49,016 bases of DNA, taken from positions 1 to 49,016 of the forward strand of contig CAIMCT010000217.1 in NCBI GenBank assembly GCA_903839535.1, read 5' to 3'. The position numbers and the translations under genes were made by a program. This DNA is from an uncultured Desulfobacteraceae bacterium. GTDB lineage: Bacteria > Desulfobacterota > Desulfobacteria > Desulfobacterales > Desulfatirhabdiaceae. Positions 5,114 to 36,896 of the stretch are shown in pieces (position 1 is the stretch's first letter; the number at the start of each line of letters is the position of its first letter). Under the pieces are notes generated by a model. That model was not told where the DNA came from. It searched no databases and saw only the letters and a program-made list of their open reading frames with translations.

Positions 5114-5210
5114 TTATAGAATAGTCACAGATAACAAAAGAATTAACATGGATGAACAGGGTAGACAGGATAAAAAAGTTAGGCTTCAGATTTTTGTCTT
5201 TTATCCTGTT

Positions 5211-5275
5211 TATACTGCGAACGAGCATAATCTTCACTTTCATTTTGCTCCCTCCATCAGCGGGGGAGGGTTGAG
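5211..5275 (+). repeat. partial copy of MITE-like element (left half)
   Basis: It starts with TATACTGCGAAC and GCATAATCT and includes the CCCTCC...CAGCGGGGGAGGG core seen in the full copies at 23901-24007 and 24049-24134. The right terminal repeat is missing. Confidence 0.7.
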
Positions 5276-7588: not shown

Positions 7589-8229
7589 TGGGAAATTTTC
7601 ATGTCATTTTGGCCGATGATCACACGCTGTTTCGGCAGGGGCTGAAGAGCCTTATCTTTGGTGTCGCCGATCTTGTGGTTGTGGGAGAAGCCGGCGATGG
7701 TCTCGAACTGCTCAATCTCCTGAAGTCAAAAAAAGCGCCTCCGGATATGGTGATTCTCGACATCTCCATGCCGAACCTCAGGGGTATCGAAGCCATCCCC
7801 GAAATCAGGATTATACATCCTAAGGTGAAAATATTGATCGTAACGAATCACCAGGACAAGGAATATTTGTATCAGTCTCTTGCAGCCGGAGCTGATGGAT
7901 ACTTTCTGAAACAGGATGCTGATACGGAACTGTTTGCCGCCATAGAGCTAATTCGAAAAGGGCGCATTTATGTGCCGCCCCGTCTCTCCGAGAAGTTGGA
8001 GGATGCTTGGGAAAACATCCGCAAGGGGCTATGCAGACCCGACTTGACGATCCGGGAAAGAGAAGTCTTGAAATTGATTGCGGAGGGGAAGGCGAACCAA
8101 CAAATTGCCGACGCTCTCTTTGTCAGCGTACACACCGTGGAACGCCACCGCGCCAACATTATGCAAAAATTGAATCTGAAAAAGACCGCTGACCTTGTCA
8201 GATACGCCATCCAGAAGGGCTACATCTGA
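7588..8229 (+). CDS. NarL/FixJ-family response regulator
   Basis: This is a DNA-binding regulator of 213 residues. The receiver domain has acidic residues D10-D11, phosphoacceptor D58 (ILDISMPN) and a conserved lysine in the FLKQD segment. The C-terminal LuxR-type helix-turn-helix spans about residues 150-210 (LTIREREVLKLIAEG, then VSVHTVERHRANI). Its ATG overlaps the TGA of the upstream kinase gene, so the pair is translationally coupled and forms one two-component system. No target operator is identified. Confidence 0.92.
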   Translation: MGNFHVILADDHTLFRQGLKSLIFGVADLVVVGEAGDGLELLNLLKSKKAPPDMVILDISMPNLRGIEAIPEIRIIHPKVKILIVTNHQDKEYLYQSLAAGADGYFLKQDADTELFAAIELIRKGRIYVPPRLSEKLEDAWENIRKGLCRPDLTIREREVLKLIAEGKANQQIADALFVSVHTVERHRANIMQKLNLKKTADLVRYAIQKGYI

Positions 8230-8274
8230 TCGCCTCGCTGCTTTATACGCCCTATGGGCCGCGCCTATTTCATA

Positions 8275-8375
8275 TAGTTACCCCAGAAAACTGGACAGCC
8301 TGCTAAGTTATGAGGTATAAAAGCAAGACAACCCAAAATGGAGGGAAATGATGATAAAATGCAACGCAAAAAGGG
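8275..8375 (+). mobile_element. left-end remnant of an IS3-like insertion sequence
   Basis: The segment contains an end-like sequence (CCCAGAAAACTGGACAG) followed by ATGCAACGCAAAAAG, which encodes MQRKK. This resembles the first residues of IS3-family OrfA proteins. The frame then departs from any transposase and stops at 8434-8436. No transposase body or right end is present. It is recognised by eye only. Confidence 0.4.
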
Positions 8376-8468
8376 CACCTTTCATATTACATCAAAAGTA
8401 GTCGACACTTTTTTTGATGAGCCCAAATGGCTTTGATCATCATTTCAGTCACCGCTATGGATAACGAT

Positions 8469-8572
8469 TCCCCCCTTTGAAAAGGGGGGCCAGGAGGGAT
8501 TTAGCGGTTGTTGGTAGCTTATCCCCATTTTCAAATCCACCTTAATCCCCCTTTTCTAAAGGGGGAAATCAG
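8469..8572. repeat. inverted-repeat element with CCCCCC..GGGGGG hairpins
   Basis: The left arm has CCCCCCTTTGAAAAGGGGGG followed by CCAGGAGGGATTT. The right arm has AAATCCACCTTAATCCCCC followed by CTAAAGGGGGAAA. The two arms are imperfect inverted copies, each itself a hairpin. A second element of the same build lies at 37096-37187. This is a dispersed palindromic element without coding capacity. Confidence 0.7.
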
Positions 8573-8790
8573 TCATAATGATCTGGATGGAACGACGATT
8601 GAGGCCGCCAAAATATATAAAACTGGTGGCCTGGAAATAAAGGATACACTCAGAAAGTGTCAACAAGAAAATGAAGGATGCCGATTTGTGAATCTCAAAG
8701 ATTCACAAGAGCCATTCTTTTTTTGCTGTTTTATCGCCATTTCTGTTATAATTATTCCATCAGCATGTTGACTCCAGGACGGTAAAAGAC

Positions 8791-10302
8791 ATGATATCCT
8801 ATATTGGCGCAGTGGATCAGGGAACGACCAGTACGCGTTTCAGCATTTTTGACAAGACAGGCCGGATAGTGGCTTGGGATCAGAAAGAACACCGACAGAT
8901 ATTTCCCAAACCGGGTTGGGTCGAGCATGACCCTGAGGAAATATGGCGGAACACGCAGGATGTTATTAAAGGCGCATTGGCAAAAGGCGGGATCGGTGGG
9001 GAGAATATCACCGCCATCGGCGTTACCAATCAGCGGGAAACCACGGTGGTCTGGGATAAACGAACGGGAAAGCCTTTTTGCAATGCCATCGTCTGGCAGT
9101 GTACCCGTACCCATGATATATGTCAGAAACTGATTGCAGATGGGGGAACGGACCGATTCCGGGAGATAACCGGCCTTCCCGTCGCCACTTATTTTTCAGG
9201 GCCTAAAATATCATGGATTCTGGATCATATTCCAGAAGCCCGAAAAGCGGCCCTTGAAGGAAACGCGCTTTTTGGAACCATGGATTCCTGGATCATCTGG
9301 CAACTGACAGGCGGCCTGGATGGGGGGGCTCATGTGACCGATGTCACCAATGCCAGCCGCACTCTTCTGATGGATCTGAAAAATCTGAGCTGGGACCACA
9401 GAATGCTGGCTGTGCTGAATATTCCGTATCAGATTCTGCCGAAAATCGTTCCTTCCAGTGATGAAAATTACTGGGGATTTACCGATCCTTCAGGGCCGTT
9501 GTCTGCGGCTATTCCAGTCTGTGCGGCCCTCGGAGATCAACAGGCAGCCCTGGTGGGCCAGACCTGCTTTTCACCCGGAGAAGCCAAAAGCACATTCGGT
9601 ACCGGCGCGTTTCTGCTGATGAATACCGGAGAATTTCCCATCGTATCCAGGCACGGACTCATTACCACTGTGGCCTATCAGTTGGGTTCTGAAAAGCCCT
9701 GCTACTGTCTGGAAGGCTCAATTTCCATTTCAGGAGCCCTGGTGCAGTGGATGCGTGATAATCTGGGACTGATTTCCACATCTGCGGAAATCGAAGATCT
9801 GGCAAGAACAGTTGAGGATTGCGGAGGCATCTATTTCGTGCCAGCTTTTTCCGGACTCTTTGCACCGTACTGGCGCTCTGATGCCCGTGGTGTCATTGCC
9901 GGCCTTACCCATAATGCGAATAAGGGACATTTGGCCAGAGCCGTGTTGGAGGCGACCGCCTATCAGATCAGGGATATCGTTGGGGCCATGGAAAAGGATT
10001 CCGGGGTGAGGCTTACGCAGCTCAAAGTGGATGGCGGAATGACTGCCAATGCGCTTTTGATGCAGATTCAGGCGGATATCCTGAATGTTCCTGTGATTCG
10101 GCCCGCAGTGACGGAAGCCACTGTTCTGGGGGCTGCTTATGCCGCAGGACTTGCGGCCGGATTCTGGGCCGGAAAGGATGAACTTTGTCAGTACTGGAGC
10201 GTTGACCGGATATGGAATTCAAAAATGGCGGAAAGCGAGCGGCAATCCGGGTATCTGCAATGGAAGAAAGCGGTCAGCCGGACCCTGGATTGGTTGGTTT
10301 AG
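8791..10302 (+). CDS. glpK: glycerol kinase
   Basis: This FGGY-family kinase phosphorylates glycerol to glycerol 3-phosphate with ATP. It has 503 residues, the normal length. The N-terminal phosphate-binding loop reads [11 protein letters not shown] (residues 6-16). The characteristic GVTNQRETT and WQCTRT segments follow, and the second-half ATPase motifs ([24 protein letters not shown] and [18 protein letters not shown]) are all recognisable. No glpF, glpD or regulator is adjacent, and a mobile-element remnant lies on each side, so the gene stands alone. The ribosome site is weak (GGACGG). Confidence 0.95.
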
Positions 10303-10314
10303 GAAGATATCTAT

Positions 10315-10361
10315 AGCGCTCAGATAAATTAACCCATGTATGCTCAGATAAATTGACCCAC
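10315..10361. repeat. 19-bp direct repeat, possible IS terminus
   Basis: GCTCAGATAAATTAACCCA (from 10318) and GCTCAGATAAATTGACCCA (from 10342) are two copies differing at one base. They lie exactly where a truncated kinase gene begins. Their sequence resembles insertion-sequence termini, but no transposase is present. Confidence 0.5.
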
Positions 10362-10600
10362 CAAAAGTGGATGATGAGTTATTTCGTGCGACATATCGAA
10401 AACTTGCCGATTTGTTACAAAACGATGATGGTGCGGCAGCCAAAATGTTCGAGGCAAACAACCATATTTTCAATGCTGCTTTCCCGCGGGAGTTTTCAGA
10501 TATCAAAGCGGCAATCAGCAGATTTGATTTTGAGTCAGCACAGACACAGCTTGTACACGCAATGATGGCTCATTATGAGGTTTCTGATGAACAACAATAA
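10352..10600 (+). pseudogene. C-terminal fragment of a sensor kinase (possible HPt region)
   Basis: An open frame of about 77-83 codons (GTG at 10367) encodes the end of a signalling protein. The pattern AAISRFDFESAQTQL near the C-terminus resembles the last helices of hybrid kinases that end in a histidine phosphotransfer region. No sensor, HisKA or ATPase part remains, and the frame runs upstream straight into a repeat. The stop overlaps the ATG of the next broken gene at 10587, as in an intact kinase/regulator operon. I read it as the tail of a gene cut off by an insertion. Confidence 0.5.
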
Positions 10601-10800
10601 ACAGCCCGTCATTCTGGTGGTTGACGACACACCTGATAAATGACACATTGATCAGCAGACGCGTCATCGACCAGGATTTCCGCACGAGAAAGTAGTCCAG
10701 ATGATCATTGAAGGGAGAGGAACCCACTTTGATCCGGATATCACTGATGCTTTCATCGAAATCCAGGATGAGTTTCTGGGGATAGCTGTTCAGTTGGGTT
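10587..10800 (+). pseudogene. response regulator/HD-GYP gene with large internal deletion
   Basis: The first 18 codons encode the start of a receiver domain (PVILVVDDTPDK) and then reach an in-frame TGA at 10641. In the same frame the sequence resumes as the extreme C-terminus of an HD-GYP cyclic-di-GMP phosphodiesterase (HEKVVQMIIEGRGTHFDPD). The rest of the receiver and the catalytic HD-GYP core, some 250 codons, are missing. A single deletion explains the join. It pairs with the kinase remnant immediately upstream. Confidence 0.65.
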
Positions 10801-10804
10801 CTGC

Positions 10805-10993
10805 TCATTGCAAGAGACAATGGTATGGACGGACTACCTGGTCGGGTGGTGTTGACCTTTTTGCCAGTTTTCGAAATCCCTGCAATACGCGATCCGTGTC
10901 GGCCTCTGACTCAGCAGTGTCGTCGAATGATATATTACCGATTCCGGCAAACAATTCTTCAAGACTCGCCTTACCATCAAGAAGGGTATCCAT
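10805..10993 (-). CDS. small unrecognised frame, probably a gene fragment
   Basis: A 62-codon frame lies just downstream of the first carbonic anhydrase gene on the same strand. Its first 50 codons have a protein-like acidic composition (SLEELFAGIGNISFDDTAES), but I recognise no family. The frame is also open upstream to the TAG of the carbonic anhydrase gene, without a ribosome site. It may be what is left of a gene disrupted by the duplication whose edge falls at 11033-11037. Confidence 0.25.
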   Translation of the reverse strand: MDTLLDGKASLEELFAGIGNISFDDTAESEADTDRVLQGFRKLAKRSTPPDQVVRPYHCLLQ

Positions 10994-11032
10994 ATATCGG
11001 CTGATAATCCGGGTCCGAGTTCGCTTCTTGTG

Positions 11033-11560
11033 CTAACCTCCTTCGCGAATCCGGCTGAGGGTCATGTGTTCGTGCGCCACATTCAAATAATTCAGGATGG
11101 GGTTGGCGATACTGGGAATGATCTCATGCGGAAATTCCTTTCTGAGTGTCGCAGGAGCGCCTGCAACCAGGTGAAACGGTCCGACAATCTGGCCTTCTTT
11201 CAAAAGGGAGCCAGCGGCGACCATGGATCCCTTGAGAACCTGGCAACCATTCAGCAGGAGAGACCCCATGCCGATCAAACAGTAATCCTCAATATAACAG
11301 CCATGCACTACAACATTGTGGCCTACGGTGACATGCCTTCCGATATGCGCGGGCTTTCCATAATCCGTATGCACCGTGCAATTATCCTGAATATTGGAGT
11401 CTTCCCCTACGAAAATCGGGGCCATATCCCCTCTGAGTACCGCGCCATACCAGATGCTGGCCCCGTCCTGAATTTCAACATCCCCGACAATCACCGCGGT
11501 GGGTGCAATAAAGACATTCTGGCCGATACGAGGTTTTTTCTCACCTAACTCAATTATCAT
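11033..11560 (-). CDS. gamma-class carbonic anhydrase family protein (copy 1)
   Basis: This is a left-handed beta-helix protein of 175 residues built from hexapeptide repeats. It carries the histidines expected to bind metal in gamma-carbonic anhydrases (the HTDYGKP segment and GHNVVVHG). The likely role is interconversion of CO2 and bicarbonate, which would suit the adjacent CO dehydrogenase because CO oxidation yields CO2. The ATG at 11560 was chosen because homology with copy 2 is conserved from MIIELGEKKPRIG onward. CooS is encoded about 100 bases upstream on the same strand. The gene is nearly identical to that at 15398-15925, and the homology ends abruptly after its stop codon. Confidence 0.85.
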   Translation of the reverse strand: MIIELGEKKPRIGQNVFIAPTAVIVGDVEIQDGASIWYGAVLRGDMAPIFVGEDSNIQDNCTVHTDYGKPAHIGRHVTVGHNVVVHGCYIEDYCLIGMGSLLLNGCQVLKGSMVAAGSLLKEGQIVGPFHLVAGAPATLRKEFPHEIIPSIANPILNYLNVAHEHMTLSRIREGG

Positions 11561-11657
11561 TACAATACCTATGACTATTTTTCTTGTGAAGATTTGGCAA
11601 TCAAGCATCAGCCTACTATCTGCCTAATCACTCATCAAAATGCATTTCCAGGCCATT

Positions 11658-13538
11658 CTACAGCGTATGGAAGCCCAACCCCAGGGCCTTTCTGCGCTCT
11701 TCGATATGTCTTCGAATCAGAATTGCCGACTTTTCCGGATCAGGTTCCACTGCAAACACTGCTCCGACAACATCCCTCAGACCTTCTGTTAGAAGTTTAA
11801 CCACATTCAGGCTTCCGGCAATGGGCGGCATTGGACCTAAAACCGTGTAAACCCCTGAAGCCACGAAATAAGCAGCTATGGACACAGCTTTTTCGGAATA
11901 CCATTCGGGCGCACCACCTGCGATGGGAAGATCGCTGATGTCCGCATTCAGGGCATTGGCCAGCGCGCCAGCCAACATCAGGATACGCACGTTATCCACG
12001 CAACTGCCAAGATGCAGCACCGGCGGGATGCCCAGCGCACCGCAAACATCTTTCAAACCGGGACCGGCAAATTGAATGGCGTCCGGCATCTTGAAACCGG
12101 CCTTGGCGGTGGCAATGGCTGCGCACCCGGTATCCACAACCAGTATGTCGTTTTCGATCAGGCGCCTTGCAAGGGTTACATGTCCGTAATCATGCAGTAT
12201 TTTTGGGTTGTTGCATCCGACGATACCGGCTGCGCCGCGAATTTTCCCAGCCTTGATGGCATCCAGAAGCGGAGCGACAGATCCGCCAAGAGCGCCGACA
12301 ATGGATTCAACCGAAAACCCGCCAATGGCTTTCACTGGTTCAACCGGTAGATAAATCCTGCTCCGATTGTCAAAATTTTGGATGGCCTCTTGCACCAGGG
12401 CCTTGGCCAGTTCTTCGGCATTCTCTGGATGAAATTCCCGGTGTTCCATTCCGGGGAACCTGGCCTTGTCGCTGGTACTGATCATGCGGGTGTGATAACA
12501 GGAAGCCACCTTCCCCAAAGACGGCATAATGCACTGATAATCAACTATCATCATCTCCACCGCACCGGTGGAAAGAATCAGCTCTGTCATAAGGTGATTG
12601 CCGGCCATGGGGATGCCGTGCCGCATCAAAAGCTCATTTCCGGTGCAGCAGACACCCGCAAGATTGATGCCTGTGGCACCTTTGCTTTCAGCCAGTTGAA
12701 TCAGTTCTGAAGACTGACTGGCCATCAGGATCATCTCGGAAACCACAGGATTATGGCCATGCACCACTATATTGACCTGGTCTTTTTTAAGGACGCCGGC
12801 ATTGACGTTTGTGGGCTTTGGGGAAGGCGTGCCAAATAGGATGTCGGATACCTCGCTCGCAATCAGGGAGCCGCCCCATCCATCGGAAAGGGCGTTGCGG
12901 AGCCCCTGAAGCAGCAGGCTCTGCCAGCCGTTATCCACGCCCATGTGCGTACGGTGCATCATTTCCGATGTTTCCCGGTCGATTCCACGGGGCGTTATGC
13001 CCACATTTTTCCAGATTTCCCGCCGTTTTGCAGGGGCCCTCTTCAGCAGGGTGAGTTCGGTGATTCGGGTGCCAAAATCCTCCTGCATCGCGAATGCCAA
13101 TTCACCGGCTATGACAAGAATATCTTTCCCCAGAGTTTCGACGCCGTACTCCGCTGCAACTTTTTTCAGTTTTTCCGGGTCACGAATGGCATATCCCTGG
13201 GCCTGGCCTTTGGCGACGTTAGCCAAAACCTCAACCAGATCCCGTCCATGGTCCGAATGGGAGGCGGCGCCTGCGGCAATCATACGGCAGAGATTTCGAG
13301 CCACAATAATATCGGCATCGGCTCCGCAAACTCCCTGTTGCGGGCCTTCGCCAAAGGGATCCACCCTGCATGGACCCATGATGCAGTTGCGGCAGCTAAG
13401 CCCCAGTTCACAGTATCCGCACTGGGGGAGCTGAGCCTGATGACGATCCCAAACGGTCTCGATCTGATCCGTTTGTGCTTTCTTGAGCAACAATTGTCCA
13501 TCTTCGGTAATGGTCTGTTGATGATAGGTGCAGGACAT
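11658..13538 (-). CDS. cooS: anaerobic Ni carbon monoxide dehydrogenase catalytic subunit
   Basis: This enzyme reversibly oxidises CO to CO2 at a Ni-Fe-S C-cluster. It has 626 residues, normal for the monofunctional CooS type. N-terminal cysteines C40, C43, C49, C52, C57 and C71 match the ligands of the D and B clusters (CGYCELGLSCRNCIMGPCR). Segments for the C-cluster follow (GVCCTGNELL, GCNNPK, VDTGCAA, GSCVDN). A longer frame begins at 13565, but GGAGG at 13547-13551 supports the ATG at 13538. The ferredoxin gene ends 14 bases upstream, so CooF and CooS are cotranscribed. No acetyl-CoA synthase or energy-converting hydrogenase is present in the window. With the FAD oxidoreductase, CO oxidation probably feeds ferredoxin and NAD(P). 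Confidence 0.95.
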   Translation of the reverse strand: MSCTYHQQTITEDGQLLLKKAQTDQIETVWDRHQAQLPQCGYCELGLSCRNCIMGPCRVDPFGEGPQQGVCGADADIIVARNLCRMIAAGAASHSDHGRDLVEVLANVAKGQAQGYAIRDPEKLKKVAAEYGVETLGKDILVIAGELAFAMQEDFGTRITELTLLKRAPAKRREIWKNVGITPRGIDRETSEMMHRTHMGVDNGWQSLLLQGLRNALSDGWGGSLIASEVSDILFGTPSPKPTNVNAGVLKKDQVNIVVHGHNPVVSEMILMASQSSELIQLAESKGATGINLAGVCCTGNELLMRHGIPMAGNHLMTELILSTGAVEMMIVDYQCIMPSLGKVASCYHTRMISTSDKARFPGMEHREFHPENAEELAKALVQEAIQNFDNRSRIYLPVEPVKAIGGFSVESIVGALGGSVAPLLDAIKAGKIRGAAGIVGCNNPKILHDYGHVTLARRLIENDILVVDTGCAAIATAKAGFKMPDAIQFAGPGLKDVCGALGIPPVLHLGSCVDNVRILMLAGALANALNADISDLPIAGGAPEWYSEKAVSIAAYFVASGVYTVLGPMPPIAGSLNVVKLLTEGLRDVVGAVFAVEPDPEKSAILIRRHIEERRKALGLGFHTL

Positions 13539-13551
13539 ATAAATAACCTCC

Positions 13552-14157
13552 TTATACCGCCGCATGTCTGACTGCGATTTGTGCGCGTTTGATGGTATTC
13601 AGCAAGGTAAAGCTCGGCGAGCCTTGAGGAACGTCGATACCTGCTGAAATGCTTTGGGCAACCTGATCGGTTTTTCGCTTCAATGCCTTCGAATTGTCTT
13701 CGAAGGTTAGAGCGCCAGATTTGCAGACTTCCACACAGGCAGGCACCCGTTCCTGCTGCTGTCGCTCCATGCAGTTGTCGCATTTGATGGCGACAGCCTT
13801 TTTCGGCGGTGCGGAAGCATCTTCATGGTACCGGATCACACCAAACGGGCAGGCCATTGCGCATGAAGCGCAGTTGATGCAGCGATCCGGGTCGACGTAA
13901 ACCGTTTCTGTTTGCATATCTCGGTGGATCGCACCTGGCAGACAGGCCAGCATGCATGGCGCGGGATTGCAATGTCGGCAGCGGTTGGGGAACCCTTCAG
14001 CATAAAGCCCGGTCCCCAGATGAATCCTAGACCGTGGCAAAGGGGTTTCCCGAATCGCCGAAAAAAGCTGACGGGTCCGGGAATGGGCCGTGGCGCAGGC
14101 CGCCATGCACTGCATACATCCCACACACCGTTCGGGATGAACGATAACCTGGTTCAT
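13552..14157 (-). CDS. cooF: CooF-like polyferredoxin of the CODH operon
   Basis: This iron-sulfur electron carrier of 201 residues has four cysteine clusters: CVGCMQCMAAC near the N-terminus, CRHCNPAPCMLAC, CINCASCAMACPFG, and CDNCMERQ...CVEVC. This is the pattern of the CooF/HycB/DmsB family, which binds four [4Fe-4S] clusters and takes electrons from a catalytic partner. It lies directly upstream of cooS and 12 bases downstream of the FAD oxidoreductase gene. It therefore most likely carries electrons from CODH to that flavoprotein. GAAAGGAGG before the ATG at 14157 supports the start. Confidence 0.93.
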   Translation of the reverse strand: MNQVIVHPERCVGCMQCMAACATAHSRTRQLFSAIRETPLPRSRIHLGTGLYAEGFPNRCRHCNPAPCMLACLPGAIHRDMQTETVYVDPDRCINCASCAMACPFGVIRYHEDASAPPKKAVAIKCDNCMERQQQERVPACVEVCKSGALTFEDNSKALKRKTDQVAQSISAGIDVPQGSPSFTLLNTIKRAQIAVRHAAV

Positions 14158-14169
14158 AATTGCCTCCTT

Positions 14170-15396
14170 TCAGAACATCAATGATTTGAGGGAAAGATGG
14201 GGTTCGAGTAATTTTTCCTTTGAAGCCCGGACAGGTATTTCATTCTGTATCATGGCAGTCAGAATCCCGCCGGTTTCAATCCGGTTGACAAGGGTGGCGC
14301 CGATAAGGCTGTCACCTTCAAATACCAGCCTTCGATAGGTATTAAGGCACTGGTTGTGTTCACTAAGAACCGTAAACCGCGGATCATCCGGCGCATTCAC
14401 CCATCCGACTGCAAGAATATCCAGGTCAAAAATGCGAATGACGTTCCGGCTCAGACTTCCCTTATAGACTACGGCTCGTCCTGCCATGTTCATGCCGGCG
14501 ATACGCCCCTGAGTGGCGGCCTCCGGCCAGATTGCATTCACCCAGCGTGTTTTTCTGGCGATATCCATGGATTCCACCACATCGCCGGCGGCGAAAATGC
14601 CGGGGCAAGTGGTTTCCAGGTGATTATCAACCACAATTCCCTGGTCCACCTGTATCCTGTCCCGTGGAACAAAGGAGACAGCCGGCAGAACGCCTTTTCC
14701 GATGATGACCAGATCGCAGCAAATCTCTGATCCGTCAGAGAGAAGCGCGCCGGTCACCGTATTGATCCCCTTGAAAGCCGTTACTTCCGTTCCCACCCGA
14801 ACGTTCAGCCCCCGGCGGGTCAGTTCAGATAGAATCATGCCGCCGGCTATCTCATCCACCTGAAGGGAAAGCGGATAACCGGATCGAATGAGCATTGTCA
14901 CGTCGATTCCCCGATGAAGCAGTCCGCAAGCAGCCTTGAATCCGACCAGGCCGCCACCCAGTACCAGGGCGTGTCGCGTCCGGGGAAGTGCTTCAAGCAT
15001 TTTCAGCACCTGATGCTGATTCCGCATGAAAAAAATGTTGGCAAGGTCAGCGGGTGCTTTTACGGGACGGGGATCAGCGCCGGAAGCAATGAGAAGGGTG
15101 TCAAAGGGCAGGGTTTTTCCATCAGAAAGAAACAGGATTTTTGCATCCACATCCATTCGGGCAACCCGACTGCCCAAAACAGGGGTAATATTGAGGGATT
15201 GATAAAAGCTGGAGCCGCGAATGGGCAATTTTGAAGCTGAAACCGTTCCTTCCAGAACAAGACTGATCATTGGGCGACAATAGGGCTCAACCGACTCGTT
15301 GCTGATCATGAAAATACCGCAGGAACCGTCCAGTTGACGGATGGCCTCAGCAGCGCTGACACCAGCAATGCCGTTTCCGATGATGACGTAATTCAT
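14170..15396 (-). CDS. FAD-dependent NAD(P)/ferredoxin oxidoreductase of the CODH operon
   Basis: This flavoprotein of 408 residues belongs to the pyridine nucleotide-disulfide oxidoreductase fold. The FAD-binding motif is GNGIAG at residues 7-12. The NAD(P)-binding motif is GGGLVG near residue 150. The second FAD motif (GIFAAGDVVE) lies near residue 285. No redox-active CxxC is seen, so it is not a thioredoxin-reductase-type enzyme. A CooS-CooF-flavoprotein order recurs in several bacterial CODH clusters, where the flavoprotein is thought to link CO oxidation to NAD(P) reduction. The ATG is one base after the stop of the upstream carbonic anhydrase gene, and the ribosome site GGAGG lies inside that gene. 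Confidence 0.9.
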   Translation of the reverse strand: MNYVIIGNGIAGVSAAEAIRQLDGSCGIFMISNESVEPYCRPMISLVLEGTVSASKLPIRGSSFYQSLNITPVLGSRVARMDVDAKILFLSDGKTLPFDTLLIASGADPRPVKAPADLANIFFMRNQHQVLKMLEALPRTRHALVLGGGLVGFKAACGLLHRGIDVTMLIRSGYPLSLQVDEIAGGMILSELTRRGLNVRVGTEVTAFKGINTVTGALLSDGSEICCDLVIIGKGVLPAVSFVPRDRIQVDQGIVVDNHLETTCPGIFAAGDVVESMDIARKTRWVNAIWPEAATQGRIAGMNMAGRAVVYKGSLSRNVIRIFDLDILAVGWVNAPDDPRFTVLSEHNQCLNTYRRLVFEGDSLIGATLVNRIETGGILTAMIQNEIPVRASKEKLLEPHLSLKSLMF

Positions 15397-15397
15397 G

Positions 15398-15925
15398 CTA
15401 ACCTCCTTCGCGAATCCGGCTGAGGGTCATATGTTCATGCGCCGTATTCAGATAATTCTTGATGGGGTTGGCGATGCGGGGAATGATCTCGTGGGGAAAT
15501 TCCCTTCTCAGTGTCGCCGGAGCCCCTGCAACCAAGTGAAACGGCCCGACAATCTGGCCTTCTTTCAAAAGAGAACCCGCTGCAACAAGGGATCCCTTTA
15601 GTACCTTGCAATCGTTCAGTAAAAGAGATCCCATGCCGATCAGACAGTAATCTTCAATAAAACAACCATGCACCACAACATTATGACCGATGCTGACATG
15701 CTTTCCGATATGTGTCGGCTTTCCATAATCCGTATGCACCGTGCTGTTGTCCTGGACATTGGAGTTTTCTCCAATAAAAATCGGAGCCTTATCTCCTCTG
15801 AGTACCGCACCATACCAGATGCTGACCCCATCCTGGATTTCAACATCCCCGACAATCACCGCAGTGGGTGCAATAAAGACATTCCGACCAATGCGGGGTT
15901 TTTTCTCACCTAACTCTATGATCAT
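15398..15925 (-). CDS. gamma-class carbonic anhydrase family protein (copy 2)
   Basis: This is the second copy of the hexapeptide-repeat protein, 175 residues, differing from copy 1 by scattered substitutions (for example GDKAPIFIGENSN for GDMAPIFVGEDSN) while keeping the putative metal histidines. It is the first gene of the CODH operon and is translationally adjacent to the flavoprotein gene. The first 30-35 bases upstream of the ATG also match copy 1 and then diverge at TGTGAAGATT. The two copies are therefore a duplicated block that brackets FNOR-cooF-cooS. Confidence 0.88.
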   Translation of the reverse strand: MIIELGEKKPRIGRNVFIAPTAVIVGDVEIQDGVSIWYGAVLRGDKAPIFIGENSNVQDNSTVHTDYGKPTHIGKHVSIGHNVVVHGCFIEDYCLIGMGSLLLNDCKVLKGSLVAAGSLLKEGQIVGPFHLVAGAPATLRREFPHEIIPRIANPIKNYLNTAHEHMTLSRIREGG

Positions 15926-16141
15926 TACAATGCCTTTGATGATTTTCTTTTGTGAAGATTCTATAATCAGTCTCCAGTTTAAAAACATGATTTACTCATA
16001 AAACAAAGAACTTTCAGAGTCAAAATAAATAATCAATCCACTTGCCCTTTATGGACAAACCGAAACATAAGGAGTATGATGTCAGCATAAATGGTTCTGC
16101 GGAAACGGAACTGTTCCCGCTTCACCATCAACCCTTAAAAA

Positions 16142-16942
16142 ATGATGCCCATGAAAGATTATTATCAAGTTCTGGGGGTTTCAAAAGATACCTCCTCACA
16201 GAAAATTAAGACAGCTTATCGCGAGAAGGCTTTTTTATATCACCCGGATCGCTGTAAGGACCCGTCTGGCGCGGATCAGATGAAGGCCATCAACGAGGCA
16301 TATTCTGTTCTGTCTCACCCCCAGAAACGGAAGGAATATGATTCGATGCAGCAGCGGTATGGTGATGCAGCTTATGGACATTTCCGCAAATCCTATTCGG
16401 AGCAGGATATATTCAAAGGGTCCGATTTTCAGCAGATATTTGAGGAGATGGCCAAGGGATTTGGCATCCGGGGATTTGACGCTATTTTCAAGGAATACTA
16501 TGGTCAGAACTATAAGAAATTTGAACTCAAACGGCCCGGATTGAATATCCAGGGTTTTTTTTTCAGTGGAGTCCGTCAAATGCCTTTTCTAAAAACGCAG
16601 GCTATCAAGGAAAAAATAGGAAATATCACCCAGCAATTGTTTCAGAAAGCAACCACTGGTCAGCCTCAAAAAGGCGCCGACTATCACGATGTAATTCGCA
16701 TCAATCAGTCTCTGGCTGATAATGGCGGCCCTTATGCCTACCATCTTCGGGCATATCGCAGAAAGCTTGTGGTTAAAATTTCTCCGGGAACGCGGGAAGG
16801 GCAGAAAATCCGGCTTGCGGGAATGGGGGAAGAAGGAAAAAACGGAATGCCTTCCGGAGATTTATTTCTCAAAATCACACTGGAAAAATCCCTGTTTGAA
16901 AAAATCAAGGATATGCTGCCATTAAAAAAAAGAAGTAACTAA
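16142..16942 (+). CDS. DnaJ-domain co-chaperone
   Basis: The protein has 266 residues. An N-terminal J domain (about 5-70) has the essential HPD at residues 34-36 (YHPDRCK). A middle region without the zinc-finger repeats of classical DnaJ follows. The C-terminal substrate-binding part contains VKISPGTREGQKIRLAGMG. The build resembles CbpA-like type II J proteins, shortened. It would stimulate a DnaK partner. ATG codons at 16142, 16145 and 16151 are all in frame, and no clear ribosome site separates them. An aminotransferase gene follows 16 bases later. Confidence 0.85.
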   Translation: MMPMKDYYQVLGVSKDTSSQKIKTAYREKAFLYHPDRCKDPSGADQMKAINEAYSVLSHPQKRKEYDSMQQRYGDAAYGHFRKSYSEQDIFKGSDFQQIFEEMAKGFGIRGFDAIFKEYYGQNYKKFELKRPGLNIQGFFFSGVRQMPFLKTQAIKEKIGNITQQLFQKATTGQPQKGADYHDVIRINQSLADNGGPYAYHLRAYRRKLVVKISPGTREGQKIRLAGMGEEGKNGMPSGDLFLKITLEKSLFEKIKDMLPLKKRSN

Positions 16943-16958
16943 AACAGGAGCAGAACCG

Positions 16959-17807
16959 GTGGATGTTTATTACATTGACGGCAAGTTTGTTCCGTCTGAT
17001 GAAGCGGTGATTCCCGTAACAGATCTTGCCATTCTTCGGGGTCTGGGTGCATTTGATTTCATGCGAACATATACGCGCAAGCCGTTTTGTCTTGGGGCGC
17101 ATCTTGAACGACTTGAAGCCTCCACCCGGAAGATCGGGCTTCAGTTCCCATGGACAAAGGATATGCTGGCTCATCTCGTCATGGAAACGCTCAGTCGCAA
17201 TTCCCACAAGGAATCCAATGTCCGGATTATCGTAACCGGCGGGTCCAGCCCGGATTTTATGAATCCCCAGGGTAATCCCAGGCTTATCATCATGGTTTCT
17301 CCGCTTCCCGAGATGCCGGCATGGTGGTATAGTGATGGCATTTATGTCACTACCCATGTTACCGAAAGAACTCTGACCGGGGCCAAAAGCATCAACTATA
17401 TTCAGGCGAGCATCGCCCTTGAAATCGCACGAAAACATGGCGCTCAGGAAGCGGTTTATGTGGTTCCACAGGGGTTGGTGCTTGAAGGTGCCACATCCAA
17501 TATCTTTGCGATAGCAGCCGGCAGACTGATCACTCCTGGAAGGGGAATTCTTCCCGGAATTACCCGGCAGGTCATTCTGGATCTGGCGCAAACTCATTTT
17601 TCAGTCAAAATCAGGGATCTTTTTCTTTCGGAACTGCTTGATGCCGATGAGGTTTTCATCTGTGGCACCAACAAAGGCATTGTTCCGGTTGTCAAGGTGG
17701 ATGACACCTTTATCGGAAACGGGAAACCTGGCCCTAATACCAGCCTGCTAATTCAGAGATTTTCGGATTTTGTACGCACCTACGATGCACCGCTAATCGC
17801 TTTATAG
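16959..17807 (+). CDS. class IV PLP aminotransferase
   Basis: The protein has 282 residues and belongs to the fold-type IV family, which holds branched-chain aminotransferase, D-amino acid aminotransferase and aminodeoxychorismate lyase. The PLP lysine is probably K143 (GAKSINYIQ). The phosphate-binding glutamate lies in the VLEGATSNIF segment. The N-terminus (YIDGKFVPSDEAVIPVTD) and the length fit a D-amino acid or branched-chain type; the substrate is not decidable by eye. The start is GTG at 16959 behind AGGAG. Confidence 0.88.
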   Translation: MDVYYIDGKFVPSDEAVIPVTDLAILRGLGAFDFMRTYTRKPFCLGAHLERLEASTRKIGLQFPWTKDMLAHLVMETLSRNSHKESNVRIIVTGGSSPDFMNPQGNPRLIIMVSPLPEMPAWWYSDGIYVTTHVTERTLTGAKSINYIQASIALEIARKHGAQEAVYVVPQGLVLEGATSNIFAIAAGRLITPGRGILPGITRQVILDLAQTHFSVKIRDLFLSELLDADEVFICGTNKGIVPVVKVDDTFIGNGKPGPNTSLLIQRFSDFVRTYDAPLIAL

Positions 17808-17823
17808 AACAACTCGCATCACG

Positions 17824-17853
17824 AAAGCGCAGATTATGCCCGTTCGCAGTATA
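17824..17853 (-). repeat. solo terminal end of the MITE-like element
   Basis: On the minus strand it reads TATACTGCGAAC followed by GGGCATAATCTGCGCTTT, the left end of the element at 23901-24007. The remainder is missing. Confidence 0.65.
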
Positions 17854-18021
17854 TCACCAACGTCCTGTAATTCATCTCCCTCTTGGCTGCGTACTGGAAA
17901 ATAATGCTTAGGTAGTCGAAGCCCAAAGTGAAAAAGTATGGCACCCTGAAGCTGTTCGCCGTTATCGACGACAGGGGCGCACTGCAATGAATCGTGAAGA
18001 AACAAGGGAGGAGACTTTCAG

Positions 18022-21000
18022 ATGAGTGATCAACAGACAACGCGATTTCAAGATATGAAAAACCCGCGACTGACGGCGATTCTGCTCCTGACCATTTTCG
18101 CAGCAGGAGCGCTGTTTGTCTGGTGGATGGCGGCGCAGGCCGATTGCGAGATGCGCTCAGAATTGCTCCGGCAGGCGCACCTTGTGGCGCAGCCAGTGAA
18201 TGTTCAGCGTGTCATGTCTCTATTGGGTACGGAAGCGGACATGGACAGCCCCGGCTATCGCCGGATAAAGGAACAGCTTGCCGCTGTTCGTTTGGCCAAT
18301 TCGCAATACCGTTTTATCTATATCATGGGCCGCAGATCCGATGGCTCAGTCTTCTTCTTCGCGGACAGCGAACCTGTCGGCGCGAAGGATTATTCCCCAC
18401 CCGGGCAGGTCTATGAAGAAATCCCGGAAGGTTATCGTCGCGTGTTCGACTCCAGGTCCGCCGCCGTCGAAGGCCCGGTAGCAGATCGCTGGGGCGTTTG
18501 GGTCTCGGCGCTGGTTCCGCTTACCGATCCGAAAACCGGCGCAGTGGTCGCTGTGCTGGGCGTGGATATTGACGCACACGACTGGAAACGGGATGTGGCC
18601 GTCCGGGCGGCGCTGCCAGTGGGGCTGATGTTCTTGCTACTCATCGGCATAGCCTCAGCCGTAGCTTCCGCTCGCCGCGTTGACACCTCGCCCAAGCCAG
18701 TTCTGCGGCGTATGCTGCCCTCCCTGGCGGCCATGGTGATCCTGCTAATTGTCGGCGCATGGGTGATCCTGTGGCAACAGCATCAGCAGCAACTGGCAGG
18801 GGAGATTGCAGCAAATATTTCCGAGGTCTCAAGCGATATGCGTACTGTCGTGGATCAGCAGGCCTTCGGCCTGTCTATGGCGGTGCAACCCATCGCTACC
18901 AACACCACTGTCCAAAAGGCACTGCGCGATGGCGATGTCGACCGCCTCCTGGCAGACTGGCAGCCCGTGTTCGAGACGCTGCACTGGCAGAACAAACTAA
19001 CGCACTTCTACTTTTTTGATGCCAACCGCATCTGCCTGCTAAGGGTCCACAAACCGGAGAATCGCGGCGACCTCATAGATCGTTTTACCGTCCTTGAAGC
19101 CGAACGCACTGGCAAGATCGCCTCTGGTATTGAATTGGGACCACTGAGTACATTCACGCTTAGAGTGGTGCAGCCGGTTTTCGAAGAAGGCAGGCTTGTC
19201 GGCTATGTGGAACTGGGCAAAGAGATTGAGGACATACTGCAAGCGATAGACACCCAATCCGGCAACCAACTGGCTGTGGTTATCCGCAAGGAGCATCTGA
19301 ACCGGCAGACATGGGAAGATGGCATGCGCCTGCTAGGACGGCTGTCCGACTGGGATCGCCTGCACCATAACGCGGTGATCTACGCCTCCAATGGTCGCCT
19401 GCCTGACATCTTTGCGCCATGGGCCGACCAAGCGGCGGACAAGCAAGCCAACTGCGAAACGAGCAGGGAGATTGCCTTCGATGGGAAGGACTGGCGGATA
19501 TCCGCGTCACCCCTGCAAGATGTCTCGGGCAAAAGAGTTGGCGACTTGCTGATCATGCGCGATATCACGGCCGTAAAAGTGGCTTTCGCACGCCTGATGG
19601 TTCTGGGCGGAACTGGCGCCGCGCTGCTGCTGGCGCTGCTGCTTGGATTCATCTATGTCTTGCTTCGCCGCACTGATGCAGGTATCCGCGCCCAGCAGTC
19701 GGCATTGCGGGAAAGCGAGGAATCTTACCGCAGTCAATTCGCCAACAATTCAGCAGTGATGCTGCTGATTGATCCCAAAGATGGAGCGATCATTGATGCT
19801 AATGTCGCCGCGCTGAGGTTCTACGACTATCGGCGAGAGCGGTTGCTGACCATGTGTATAACCGATATCAACACCCTGCCTGTTTCCGAAGTCATGCAGG
19901 CCATGGCATCAATTCCGCAGGAACATGGCAAGCGATTCCAGTTCCAACACCGCATGGCAGATGGTTCGCTGCGAGATGTGGAAGTGTCAGCAAGCAGTAT
20001 TCAATTTGGCGGACACTTCGTTCTGCACTCGATTATCAATGACATCACCAGACGCAAACAGGCGGAAGAGGCGTTAACCAGGAGTGAGGAGAAATTCCGC
20101 AAGGCTTTTTATACCAGTCCGGACTCCGTGAACATCAACCGTCTCGAAGATGGTATGTATATCTCAATTAATCCGGCATTTACCAGGATCATGGGATATA
20201 CGGAAGAGAACATCATCGGAAAGACTTCAATGGAATATAATATCTGGGCAAATGTCGAAGACAGGCATCAACTGGTAGCCGGGTTGAGGAAGGACGGGGA
20301 AGTAACTAACCTTGAAGCCGCTTTTCGAACAAAGGGCGGTGATATTGTATATGGGTTGATGTCATCCTCTGTGATCGATCTTGGTGGTGTACCCCATATT
20401 CTCAGCATTACCCGTGACATCACCAAACGCAAGCAGGCCGATGAGGAAAAGGCCAAACTCGAAGCCCAGCTCCGACAGGCTCAAAAAATGGAGTCCATTG
20501 GATCACTTGCCGGCGGCATTGCCCATGATCTGAACAATATTCTGTTTCCGATCAGCGGCCTTTCAGAGATGCTGCTTGATGACATTCCATCGGACACCCC
20601 TGCACATAAAAGCATTGAACAAATCCATAAATCCGCACAACGGGGCAGTGACCTTGTCAAACAGATACTATCTTTCGGCCGTCAATCCAACCCACAGAAA
20701 CTGCCCATACGGATTCAGCCTATTTTGCAGGAGGTATTGAAGCTGGCGCGGGCTACAATACCCTGGAATATTGAAATCACAAGCAATATCAAACAAGATT
20801 GCGGCATGGTCTCTGCAAATCCCACACAGGTGCACCAGATCGCAATGAACCTGATCACCAACGCATTTCATGCCGTTGAGGGAAATGGCGGTACAATTAA
20901 TGTCGAGCTGAAAGAGACGAACATAAGACATCTTGACAAGAGGGATAAATCGCCTTTAAATGAGATGTCACCGGACGGAACATCAGGATTCCCCATCCAG

Positions 21001-29206: not shown

Positions 29207-30142
29207 TTAATTTCCTACCACAGGTCGTGGATATAGACCAGTCCTTTCCACGATTTCAGCCACTTTTTCTTCCCATTCGATGGCCATTATATGGAAGCCG
29301 TGTACGCCTTCCACGGACTTAAGGCGTTCAATGGTTTCCACGCAAATGTCTATTCCCTCCTGAGGCTGTTTTTCCTTGGGGATTCCTGCCATGCGTTTGA
29401 TGACATCATCCGGAACATCCATTCCTGGAACCCGATTTTTCATATACCTGGCCATACCTACGGATTTTAGCGGCGTTACTCCGGCCAGAATGTGAACTTT
29501 TTCGGTAAGACCCCTTTCTCTGGCCAGCTTTATCCAGAGTTCGAACTTATCAAGGTTGTAAATGCACTGGGTTTGAATGAATTCTACGCCAGCGGCAATT
29601 TTCTTGGCCAGACGGGGGACCCGTATTTCAAAAGGGTCGGCAAAGGGGTTTTCCGCAGCACCCACAAACATTTGGGGAGGCCGGTCAATGTCCGCGCCAC
29701 CTAAAAATTTTCCCTCATCTCTCATGCGCCTTACCGTCTGGATAAGTTGCATGGAATCAATGTCATGGACATTCTGTCCTGTGGCGCAATCCCCAAAGCT
29801 CTGGTGATCGCCTGAAAGGCAGAGGATGTTGTGGATATCAAAAGAAGCAGCCCCCAGAATGTCGCTTTGAATCGCGATCCGGTTGCGGTCCCGCGTCACC
29901 ATCTGAAGGACAGGCTCCAGGCCCATGAGTTTCAGGCGGATACATGCCGCAAGGCTGCACATACGCGTAACAGATGTCTGGTTGTCGGTAATGTTGATGG
30001 CATCGACATAGTCTTTGATCAGATGCCCTTTTTCTTCGATGTGTTTGGGGTTGCTGCCCCTGGGAGGACCGACTTCCGATGTGACTGCCAGATGTCCGGC
30101 GGCCAGAATTTGTTCCAGTTTGCTTGGCGTTTTAGTGGTCAT
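29207..30142 (-). CDS. metF: methylene-tetrahydrofolate reductase
   Basis: MetF reduces 5,10-methylene-THF to 5-methyl-THF, here probably in the methyl branch of the Wood-Ljungdahl pathway, in either direction. It has 311 residues in a TIM-barrel fold. Hallmarks are SEVGPPRGSNP at the N-terminus, the folate/FAD segment ITDNQTS, TRDRNRIAIQSD, and CLSGDHQSFGD. A frame open to 30199 exists, but the ATG at 30142 overlaps the metV stop as ATGA and is preceded by GAGGA, so translation is coupled to MetV. MetFV pairs are the acetogen-type reductase; with HdrA and MvhD next to it, a bifurcating complex is likely. Confidence 0.95.
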   Translation of the reverse strand: MTTKTPSKLEQILAAGHLAVTSEVGPPRGSNPKHIEEKGHLIKDYVDAINITDNQTSVTRMCSLAACIRLKLMGLEPVLQMVTRDRNRIAIQSDILGAASFDIHNILCLSGDHQSFGDCATGQNVHDIDSMQLIQTVRRMRDEGKFLGGADIDRPPQMFVGAAENPFADPFEIRVPRLAKKIAAGVEFIQTQCIYNLDKFELWIKLARERGLTEKVHILAGVTPLKSVGMARYMKNRVPGMDVPDDVIKRMAGIPKEKQPQEGIDICVETIERLKSVEGVHGFHIMAIEWEEKVAEIVERTGLYPRPVVGN

Positions 30143-30807
30143 ATCTGCACATCCTCCCTGACGACTTTTCGGGGTCCGCCTGCCCTGTCGGTGGACCAAT
30201 CCTTGATCGAGAAGAGCTTTTCGTAGTCATCCATTCGTCCCAGAGCCTTCAGGCGATCCACAATGAGTTGCCATGCGCAATCCAGGTCTTTGTTAATTTC
30301 GCATTTGCCCTTGCTGGAGCCGCCGCACGGACCATTTAAAATCCGCTTGGCGCAACGGGAAATCGGACAGATGCCGGCTGTGTTAGCCAGAATGCACTGG
30401 CCACAGGCCTGACATCGTTCTGTCCAGAGCCCCCGCTTATCGGTAACGCCCAGAAAACATGTGTTGACACCCGGATAGATCGGCTTGGACAGATATTTCT
30501 CCGCCATAAACTGGACACCGACACCGCAGGCCAAAGAGATCACCGCATCATACTTGTCGATTCGATCCCGGATTTCCTCAAGATACTCATGGTCGCACTG
30601 ACGTTCCAGCGTAATTTCGTCAATCCGCATGTCTTTTCCGTTGTTGATAAAATACATTCGCAGGGCCGATGCCAGAATGCCCACTTCTTTCTTTCCGCCT
30701 GCCTCACAGACGGTGACGCATTCGTTGCATCCCAGAATCAGCACATTGCGATAGGCTTCCACTTGCTGAATGATTTCTTCTATGGGTTTTTTATCGGCTA
30801 CAATCAT
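30139..30807 (-). CDS. metV: MetV, zinc/iron-sulfur subunit of methylene-THF reductase
   Basis: This is the accessory subunit of acetogen-type methylene-THF reductase, and it connects MetF to its electron donor. It has 222 residues. Cysteines occur as GCNECVTVC near the N-terminus. A dense group follows at CQACGQCILANTAGICPISRC, continuing with GPCGGSSKGKC. These match the metal-binding C-terminal domain called MTHFR_C. Its stop overlaps the metF start by four bases. In Moorella, MetFV copurifies with HdrABC-MvhD, and the same set of partners lies directly upstream here. Confidence 0.93.
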   Translation of the reverse strand: MIVADKKPIEEIIQQVEAYRNVLILGCNECVTVCEAGGKKEVGILASALRMYFINNGKDMRIDEITLERQCDHEYLEEIRDRIDKYDAVISLACGVGVQFMAEKYLSKPIYPGVNTCFLGVTDKRGLWTERCQACGQCILANTAGICPISRCAKRILNGPCGGSSKGKCEINKDLDCAWQLIVDRLKALGRMDDYEKLFSIKDWSTDRAGGPRKVVREDVQI

Positions 30808-30874: not shown

Positions 30875-31306
30875 TCATGCCGCCTTTTTCATTGCCATTT
30901 TGATGGGACTGGGTCCCAGATCGCGGATCCGCTGATCCATTTCCCGGGCGTATTCGGCAAACCGTGGACCATCTGCAGAAGAGAGGTTGAACATTTGCAC
31001 ACGTTCGCCTCCTACTCCGACGGTATTCAGGAGTTTTCTGGCCTGTTCCATCCGTTTTCTGGCCCGAAAGTTACCGCTGTTAAAGTGACAGTCTCCTTCC
31101 ATACATCCAACGGCGTAAACACCGTCTGCGCCTTTTTCAAAGGCGCGGAGGATGTGGAGAATATCCACCTTCCCCGTACAGGGAACGCGAATGATCTTAA
31201 TGCTGGACGGGTAGCTGAGTCGCATCGAACCTGCCAGGTCCGCAGCCGTGTACCCTCAGAAATTGCAGCAAAATGCAATGATAATCGGTTCAAACGTTTG
31301 CGTCAT
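30875..31306 (-). CDS. mvhD: MvhD-type hydrogenase/Hdr iron-sulfur subunit, selenoprotein
   Basis: MvhD-type proteins carry a [2Fe-2S] cluster and pass electrons between a dehydrogenase and HdrA. Read with the in-frame TGA at 31258-31256 as selenocysteine, the product has 143 residues and Sec17 in the motif FCCNFU-GYTAADLAG, where the family has CCNWCSYAGADLAG. Downstream conserved parts are RVPCTGKVD and GCMEGDCHFNSGN. Without readthrough only a protein lacking the cluster motif could be made. After the TGA, GGACCT and AGGTTC can pair around a GGC loop about 20 bases downstream, as in bacterial SECIS elements. The ATG at 31306 overlaps the hdrA stop, so the two are coupled. Confidence 0.88.
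31256..31258 (-). other. selenocysteine UGA codon in mvhD
   Basis: Codon 17 of mvhD is TGA in a frame that is otherwise intact on both sides and conserved on both sides. It replaces the last cysteine of the CCNxC motif. A six-base-pair hairpin begins 14 bases after it. Confidence 0.85.
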
Positions 31307-34300
31307 AACACCCCCTCCAGCAGTGCATCTATCTTGCTTAGCAGTTGATCATCTTCGTACCAGTTAAGCTCAATTGCTTTGGCTGGACATTCGGATGCGC
31401 AGATGCCGCATCCGTGGCATAGCGCAACATCAATTTCGCTGACTCCATCCGCATTGATCCGGGGCACGCCGTAGGGACAGGACCGCACACAGACCAGGCA
31501 TGACGCACACATATCAGCTTGTACCTGAGCAGTTACAGCGGACAGGGTCAGGCTGTCCTGGGACAGGAAAGTGGTTGCCCGGGAGGCTGCCGCCATGGAC
31601 TGCGCGATGGATTCCGAAAGCAACTTGGGACTGTGGGCCGTACCACAGATAAAAATTCCTTCGGTAGCCATATCTACAGGCTTAAGCTTTACATGAGCTT
31701 CCAGGTAATAACCCTCGGCATTTCGCGCCAGCTTCATGATGGAGGAAAGCTCTTCAGTTTCTCCCGCCACCATTCCAGCGCTTAAAATCAGATGATCGGC
31801 GCTGATCTGCAACTTGCGCCGGATGATCGGATCCGTAAATACGACATCAACGCCTTCCGGAGTGAATTCAACAAGCGGCATGTCTTCCGGAGTATAGCGG
31901 AAAAACAGTACGCCCAGCTTTCTGGCTTCGGTGAAATAGTCTTCCAGAAGCCCGTAGGTGCGAATGTCCCGGTACAGTACACTAATCTCTGCGTCCGGAT
32001 TCAACGCCTTGATATGAAGTGCGTTTTTAATGGCGCTCTGGCAACAGATACGGGAACAGTTGGGGTTTTCATCATTTCGGGAACCGATACACTGGATCAT
32101 TACCACCTGATTCAGATCTGCAGCGCCCGTTGTTTCCAGGCGGCTGCCCAGCTCCACCTGAGTCATGACCCTGGGGTCATGGCCATAGCCAAATTCTTTG
32201 GGCTGGTATTCTGTAGCGCCAGTCGCCAGAATCACAGCGCCATGATCAATTTTTCGCTCGTACATGCCCGGACCCACCAGAACTTCTGTGGTGAAATTGC
32301 CTTTGAATCCGGTAAATCCCACGATGAGCGACTGGGTGAGTACTTGAATGTTGGGATGAGAACTGGTTTTCTGAATCAGCTCGATCAGGTAAGACTGGAT
32401 ATCTGCGCCCTCGATGGTTTGGGTCAGACGCAAGGCCATGCCGCCAAGCTCCGTCTCTTTTTCAATCAGAACAACTTCAAATCCCTGATCGGCCAGGCCA
32501 ATGGCCGCTGTCATACCGGCTACACCGCCGCCGACCACCAGCGCCCGTTTGTTGACGGGTATCTGTTTTTCATGAAGAGCTTTTAAGGTTCTGGCGCGCG
32601 CCACCGCCATTCGCACCAGCTCATTGGCTTTCTGGGTTGCTTGCTGGGGATTGTCCGAATGAATCCAGGAATCCTGATTCCGGATATTGGCCATTTCAAA
32701 AAGATATTTGTTGAGTCCGCAGGCCTGAAGGGTATCCATGAAAATACCTTCATGGGTCTTGGGGCTGCATGAGGCCACAACCACCCGGTTCAACCGGTGT
32801 TCCCGGATCAGTTCCTTCATCAAGTCCTGAGCATCCTGAGAGCATGAGAAAAGGTTCTGTCCGGCATAAACCACATTCGGAAGAGTTGCTGAATAAGCCT
32901 GTACAGCCGGAACATCCACAACACCGGCGATATTGATACCGCAGTTGCAGACAAATACGCCAATCCTGGGTTCAAGGCCTTCAACCGCCATTTCTTCCGG
33001 AATTACTACGGTTTTGGTGCAGGAATATCTTGCCGGTGCCAGATTCGCACCCGCAGCACAGGCAGCGGCGCTGGCTTCAATTACCGAGGATGGAATGTCT
33101 TTTGGTCCCTGGAATACGCCGCCCACATAAACACCAGGACGGGAGCTTTCGACGGGCCTGAATGGATGTGTAGATGCGAACCGGTATTTCCCCATATCCA
33201 CGTGCAGACGATTGGCCAGATCCACCGAGGACTGCGGTATCTGAAGCCCCACGGAAAGCACCACCATGTCAAAGGTTTCTTTTTGGATTTCGCCGCTGTC
33301 ATTCACATAGCGAATTACCAGTTCACGAGTTTCCGGAACCTCGTCAATGGTGTGGATTCGGGATTTTATAAATCGGACACCAGAGCGATCCTTGGCTCGA
33401 AGATAATATTTTTCATAATCTTTTCCAAAGGAGCGAATATCCATATTGAATATGGCGCAATCCAGCTTGCCGCCGGAGTGTTCCTTGGCGACCATGGCTT
33501 CCTTGATGGCGTACATGCAGCAAACAGAGGAGCAGTAGCCGTTGCCGCACCGATTGACATCTCTTGAACCCACGCACTGAAGCCATGCGATTCTCCCTGG
33601 TTCGGTGTGATCTGAAAGCTTCACCAGATGCCCCATGGTTGGCCCGGATGCGCTTAGTATCCGCTCAAACTCAAGACTTGTCACCACATTTGGGTTTGTT
33701 CCATAATGGTAGAACTGCTGCAGCGGGGCAGGATCAAAAGCCTGGCTGCCCGGACACAGAATTACCGATCCGACGGCAATATCCCTGACCACCGTTTCCT
33801 GACGGTGATCTACGGCATTGGCCAGACAGGCATCCACGCACTGATAGCATTCCGAGCAAATTCCACAGGCCAGACATCTGCTCGCCTCTTTTCGGCAGGC
33901 TTCTTCTTCAAACCCAAGCTGTACCTCATTAAAATTGGCGACCCTGGTTTTTGAAGGCAGGTGAGGCATAGATTGCCTGCCTGCTTTTGGATATCCTTCC
34001 AACGGAACATCGGTTACTGCCGTCCAGTCAACTTCGCGGCCTTCCCAGAGATCCTTGCCCTGAATGAAGCGGTTGATGGAAATCGCAGCCTCTTTTCCAG
34101 CCTGAATGGCTTCAACAACGGTTTTGGGGCCGCTGACAGCATCGCCTCCAGAGAAAATATCCGGATCATTGGACTGAAGAGCAATGGGATCAACCACCAT
34201 TGTTCCCCAACCAGAAAGAGTGCAGGCGCATTCCTCGGTCAAACAGGCCCAGTCGGACTCCTGGCCGATGGCAGGAATTACGGTGTCAACCTCAATGATA

Positions 34301-36739: not shown

Positions 36740-36896
36740 CGGGTTTCCTCCAGACTTGGGTGTGACCAAAAATTAACTGGAAATAACATAAATCCAACAA
36801 TGCTGTTTCCCATTAACTCATTTATAATATTATGGTCAAGAAAAAAATATAATCTTTTATTTAGTAAATGAACTAAAATCAGATCAAGTCCATTTT

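Follow-up and report, generated by a model that had tools for sequence, protein, structure and literature searches.

Ni-CO dehydrogenase (Ni-CODH) gene clusters of the CooS-CooF-FNOR type have been described from Geobacter sulfurreducens and Desulfobacterium autotrophicum (Geelhoed et al., 2016; PMC4703632) and are also covered by Inoue et al. (2019; PMC6344411). In Geobacter, electron flow via CooF and FNOR to NAD(P)+ has been proposed (PMC4703632). Carbonic anhydrase (CA) is not mentioned in the main text of the CODH papers examined, and no precedent for a CA gene linked to cooS was found in the literature searched. The window, i.e., the whole stretch of 49,016 nucleotides analysed here, comes from a bacterium of sulfate-reducer type; it holds the same three genes as the known clusters and differs from them by the addition of a gamma-class CA as the first gene and of a second copy after cooS. 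The features are the following:

10303–11030, no strand assigned: non-conserved, decayed sequence separating copy A from glpK at the proposed rearrangement junction; no Pfam match
11033–11560, minus strand: copy A, putative gamma-class carbonic anhydrase, 175 aa; ORF with Hexapep and gamma-CA HMM matches
11561–11594, minus strand: leader of copy A, which still aligns with that of copy B; homology boundary
11658–13538, minus strand: cooS, Ni-CO dehydrogenase catalytic subunit; TIGR01702 match of 682 bits; nearest solved structures CODH 6b6v and relatives
13552–14157, minus strand: cooF-type 4Fe-4S protein; Fer4_11 matches; position conserved in 20 clusters of other genera
14170–15396, minus strand: FNOR, FAD/NAD(P) oxidoreductase; Pyr_redox_2 match of 8e-46; FNOR-cooF-cooS order conserved
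15398–15925, minus strand: copy B, putative gamma-class carbonic anhydrase, 175 aa; ORF with Hexapep and gamma-CA HMM matches
15926–15960, minus strand: leader of copy B; boundary of the homology to copy A
16142–16942, plus strand: dnaJ-like gene divergent from copy B; DnaJ domain

Along transcription, the genes are arranged as CA copy B, FNOR, cooF, cooS and CA copy A, with copy B as the first gene of the CODH cluster and copy A at its downstream end. The FNOR-cooF-cooS order is the one found in 20 clusters from other genera of the order. That these three genes lie between the CA copies had been proposed from the sequence and is borne out by Pfam and TIGR01702 matches: cooS scores 681.7 bits against a TIGR01702 cut-off of 478, and is adjoined by a gene for a CooF-like 4Fe-4S protein and one for an FAD/NAD(P) oxidoreductase. 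The start of cooS is likely the ATG at 13538, which follows AAGGAGG; the longest open reading frame extends to 13565. The stop codon of copy B is 1 nt from the ATG of FNOR, and the GGAGG preceding the FNOR start sits in the last codons of copy B. A gap of 97 bp separates copy A from cooS, so that co-transcription of the two is not certain. A promoter scan gave matches at chance level, including one weak match in the leader of copy A (11590–11562), and no Rfam RNA elements were found in 8200–18100. Further cooS-type genes are present in the genome of the window (G000:C483, C548 and C327) and are 45–50% identical to the cooS described here; no CA of this type was found near them in the stretches examined.

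Both CA proteins contain hexapeptide repeats (Hexapep matches of 7e-21 and 3e-21) and match the NCBIfam gamma carbonic anhydrase model (7e-45 and 3e-44), both under its equivalog cut-off, with 152.7 and 150.7 bits against the 250 bits set for NF050158, a model that may be narrower than the gamma-CA class. The motifs RGD, QDN, VHTD, GHN and VHGC are retained in both copies, and VHTD, GHN and VHGC are the three His ligand motifs, which we take to carry the expected His ligands. The proteins align near full-length to solved gamma-CAs. They share the hexapeptide repeats and His motifs with the short-type gamma-CAs of the ferripyochelin-binding-protein/CamH type (PDB 1v3w and 9rmq; plant complex I gamma-CA), from which they are set apart by the scores below the NCBIfam equivalog cut-off. 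From family membership and motifs, carbonic anhydrase activity is predicted for both copies. Two substitutions in copy B, M46K and C61S, affect sites that are constant in copy A and six aligned relatives, suggesting that the copies may have begun to differ.

The original prediction was that the two CA genes bracket the CODH genes as direct repeats in the same orientation, and this arrangement is confirmed. Both open reading frames lie on the minus strand with the same boundaries, and a direct repeat was detected at a spacing of 4365. Sliding identity is 72–96% within approximately 11031–11594 and 15396–15960 and at background beyond these limits. The homology comprises ~564 bp, running from ~35 bp before each ATG to the stop codon, and its predicted limits, TGTGAAGATT upstream and GGAGGTTAGC at the stop, prove right. 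Counting the base differences had been proposed as a check; 72 of 528 nucleotides differ (86.4% identity, 13.6% divergence), distributed as 15 at first, 10 at second and 47 at third codon positions, and the longest perfect match between the copies is 35 bp. At the protein level, 19/175 amino acids differ. Since dN is 0.055 and dS is 0.60 (dN/dS ~0.09), both copies are under purifying selection and have been kept by it, and both are apparently working. A whole-genome search of the 5.66 Mb draft genome found these two members of the CA subfamily and no third.

Comparison with relatives places the two copies in a historical context. The block dat-dnaJ-CA-FNOR-cooF-cooS is 85–90% identical at the DNA level among the window, G001 and L037 (record CAIVVZ010000302.1, uncultured Desulfobacteraceae). 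The latter two hold a single CA each, at the position of copy B, with neither a CA nor a remnant of one downstream of cooS. Relatives sharing two equally diverged copies, which by the original prediction would have indicated old, stable paralogues, were looked for in G001 and L037 and not found. Because these relatives hold one CA, in the place of copy B, copy A is considered an extra, lineage-specific copy. Identity of the window to L037 and G001 breaks off no more than a few bases from the cooS stop, and what follows cooS in the window is copy A, decayed open reading frames and glpK. More widely, most of the genus retains the dnaJ/CA pair. In G003 and G004, the CA is found between dnaJ and cytochrome c-tatC-tatA, with no CODH between CA and cytochrome c, and G005 has, as far as the contig reaches, CA-cytochrome c-tatC, again with no CODH between. 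In G001, FNOR-cooF-cooS occupies exactly the interval from CA to cytochrome c. In the genome of the window, cytochrome c-tatC-uvrA is located on contig C69, with a GDSL esterase as its neighbour.

This synteny suggests an ancestral order of dnaJ/CA-cytochrome c-tatC, in which CA and cytochrome c would have become separated by FNOR-cooF-cooS in the common ancestor of G001, G006, L037 and the window. The lineage of the window would subsequently have undergone a rearrangement that cut the locus directly after cooS, as judged from the cytochrome c-tatC-uvrA half now sitting on contig C69, and copy A is presently at the junction. The CODH genes have met other fates elsewhere in the genus. In G006, 16 of 17 bp of the FNOR start are kept after the CA stop (L054, G006:C10, just after the CA, below 8425, minus strand), and none of 5000 shuffles gave a match as good. 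Because these bases remain, the CODH genes of G006 were most likely deleted, leaving an FNOR fossil. G003 has a cooS on the other side of dnaJ (in the order cooS, then dnaJ/CA), G004 has FNOR-cooF-cooS on a contig other than that of dnaJ/CA, and the assembly of G005 is too fragmented to place its CODH relative to dnaJ/CA. In trees of cooS and FNOR (L056 from G003, L084 from G004, L085 from G005), G003 groups with G004 (support 100/88); the CA tree instead groups G004 with G005. This conflict hints at an exchange of CODH genes within the genus.

We favour, with a probability of about 0.72, the reading that the locus is a CooS-CooF-FNOR cluster headed by a CA gene (copy B), that the lineage of the window gained the diverged copy A after cooS by a duplication at about the time of the split from G001 and L037, and that both copies were kept by selection and do not constitute a recombination device. 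The duplicate is not young, since the dS of 0.60 between the copies equals that of FNOR, cooF and cooS between the window and L037 or G001 (0.52–0.61); taken together, dS and the trees would date the duplication to approximately this split. Copy A, copy B and the CA of the relatives are nearly equidistant (84.6–86.9% nucleotide identity). The best maximum-likelihood topology has A and B as sisters (AU 0.84), with modest support for the pair (SH-aLRT/UFBoot 86/78). Ten derived sites are common to A and B, and because six of these cluster in the 3´ quarter, some gene conversion is possible and could mimic the sister relationship. Copy A may be what remains of a tandem cluster duplication, or an ectopic copy. 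A tandem duplication followed by partial deletion, as suggested by the gene order in G003, was tried and rejected; the matching tree, with A outside B and the relatives, has an AU of 0.031. Leftovers of FNOR were sought in the stretch after copy A and none were found (P 0.15–0.28), in contrast to the clear stub in G006, and the 97 bp before copy A do not match the sequence that formerly followed cooS. Campbell-type integration at CA, which predicts CA-insert-CA, is not preferred because the relatives have CODH after a single CA and an additional loss would be needed. As a lineage-specific duplication at a rearrangement breakpoint, with single-copy relatives and the second copy at the break in synteny, the case is nothing unusual: copy A is an ordinary, long-kept, lineage-specific paralogue at the rearrangement junction of a CODH cluster of known type, and the locus a minor operon variant.

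The history of copy A could also be read in other ways. The duplication may predate the split from G001 and L037, e.g., if the entire cluster was duplicated in tandem in the shared ancestor and the relatives lost copy A. This would account for a dS between A and B equal to or slightly above that between the window and its relatives, and a topology with B outside A and the relatives is not rejected (AU 0.29). However, the topology expected from gene position, in which B joins the relatives and A falls outside, is the one with an AU of 0.031, and no CA remnant follows cooS in L037 or G001, which leaves an older duplication unlikely. Somewhat less likely again is a xenologous origin of copy A, by transfer of the lone CA gene of a congeneric species to the rearrangement junction. 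The near equidistance of A, B and the CA of the relatives would fit such a transfer, as would the hint of exchange in the conflicting cooS and CA trees of G003, G004 and G005, but A and B form the best-scoring pair and share derived sites, and copy A came without dnaJ and without FNOR. The position of copy A could finally be an assembly error, as the draft genome consists of 580 contigs and contains many dispersed repeats. This would, however, take two false joins placed precisely at both gene ends; moreover, repeats in the downstream stretch recur on other contigs of the assembly (up to 98% match) and glpK diverges from that of G001 as expected for this genome, and we regard an error as highly improbable.

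The original prediction went further and saw in the two genes direct repeats that could recombine to loop out or amplify the CODH set. The same orientation, the ~564 bp of homology and a perfect run of 35 bp, close to the minimum for RecA (PMC6382021), are compatible with this, as is the labile nature of CODH in the genus, lost in G006 and located elsewhere in G004. In B. subtilis, the minimal segment is 25–35 bp, and a divergence of ~15% reduces RecA-mediated exchange ~1000-fold (PMC6382021). By this standard, the 13.6% divergence of the copies would be expected to lower exchange by about the same factor, making recombination between A and B unlikely, though possible; a recombinogenic or amplifiable unit calls for long near-identical repeats, and 86.4% identity with a 35 bp perfect run is not that. 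In L037 and G001, CODH persists alongside a single CA. The loss in G006 left the FNOR stub and involved no second CA, whereas a crossover between two CA genes would remove the stub. Pfam searches over the main genes of the window revealed no transposase or integrase around the block, which also argues against an origin by a mobile element, and none of the loci examined showed a looped-out or amplified form. Loop-out or amplification of the CODH set thus finds no support and is very improbable, and we return to the favoured reading of an ordinary paralogue retained by selection.

The predicted biochemistry of the cluster is that CooS oxidises CO to CO2, that electrons pass from CooS via CooF and FNOR to NAD(P)+, and that the CAs interconvert CO2 and bicarbonate. 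A tie between CO2/bicarbonate conversion and CO oxidation, as originally put forward, is biochemically plausible because a single base separates the copy B stop from the FNOR start, and this part of the proposal stands. The adjacency is, however, absent from the 20 FNOR-cooF-cooS clusters of other genera, near which no CA was found within ~4 kb on each side where contigs reach; it occurs in only a few species within a single genus. If the link is functional, some anaerobes may couple CO oxidation to rapid CO2/bicarbonate exchange, pulling the reaction forward. For such coupling the present locus is weak evidence, given its restriction to few species and a duplication that is an ordinary paralogue. 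A more speculative and doubtful extension is a specialisation of the two copies: copy B, whose M46K and C61S changes lie next to the RGD and His motifs, and a conservative copy A would together make up a dedicated and hitherto undescribed CO2-removing module of CO oxidation. The locus is of clearer value as a small, well-resolved example of how a CODH cluster is gained, lost and rearranged.

Several other repeats and duplicates were observed in the window and elsewhere in its genome. A dispersed repeat of ~300 bp is found at 8368–8687, between a response regulator and glpK, with dozens of matches on other contigs of the same genome (~75–100% identity); relatives have shorter pieces of it. A long imperfect inverted repeat (8468–8502/8533–8567) lies within it. 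A repeat of ~63 bp at 5210–5273 has many copies in G006 and in the genome of the window (~77–91% identity). Scrambled pieces of a second glpK, 87–98% identical to glpK of the window, are present at 897–1581 of L150 (G000:C546) and apparently represent a broken duplicate. Finally, two genes of the MTHFR family in the same orientation (29210–30199 and 35873–36769) flank an open reading frame of 1418 aa (31306–35559).
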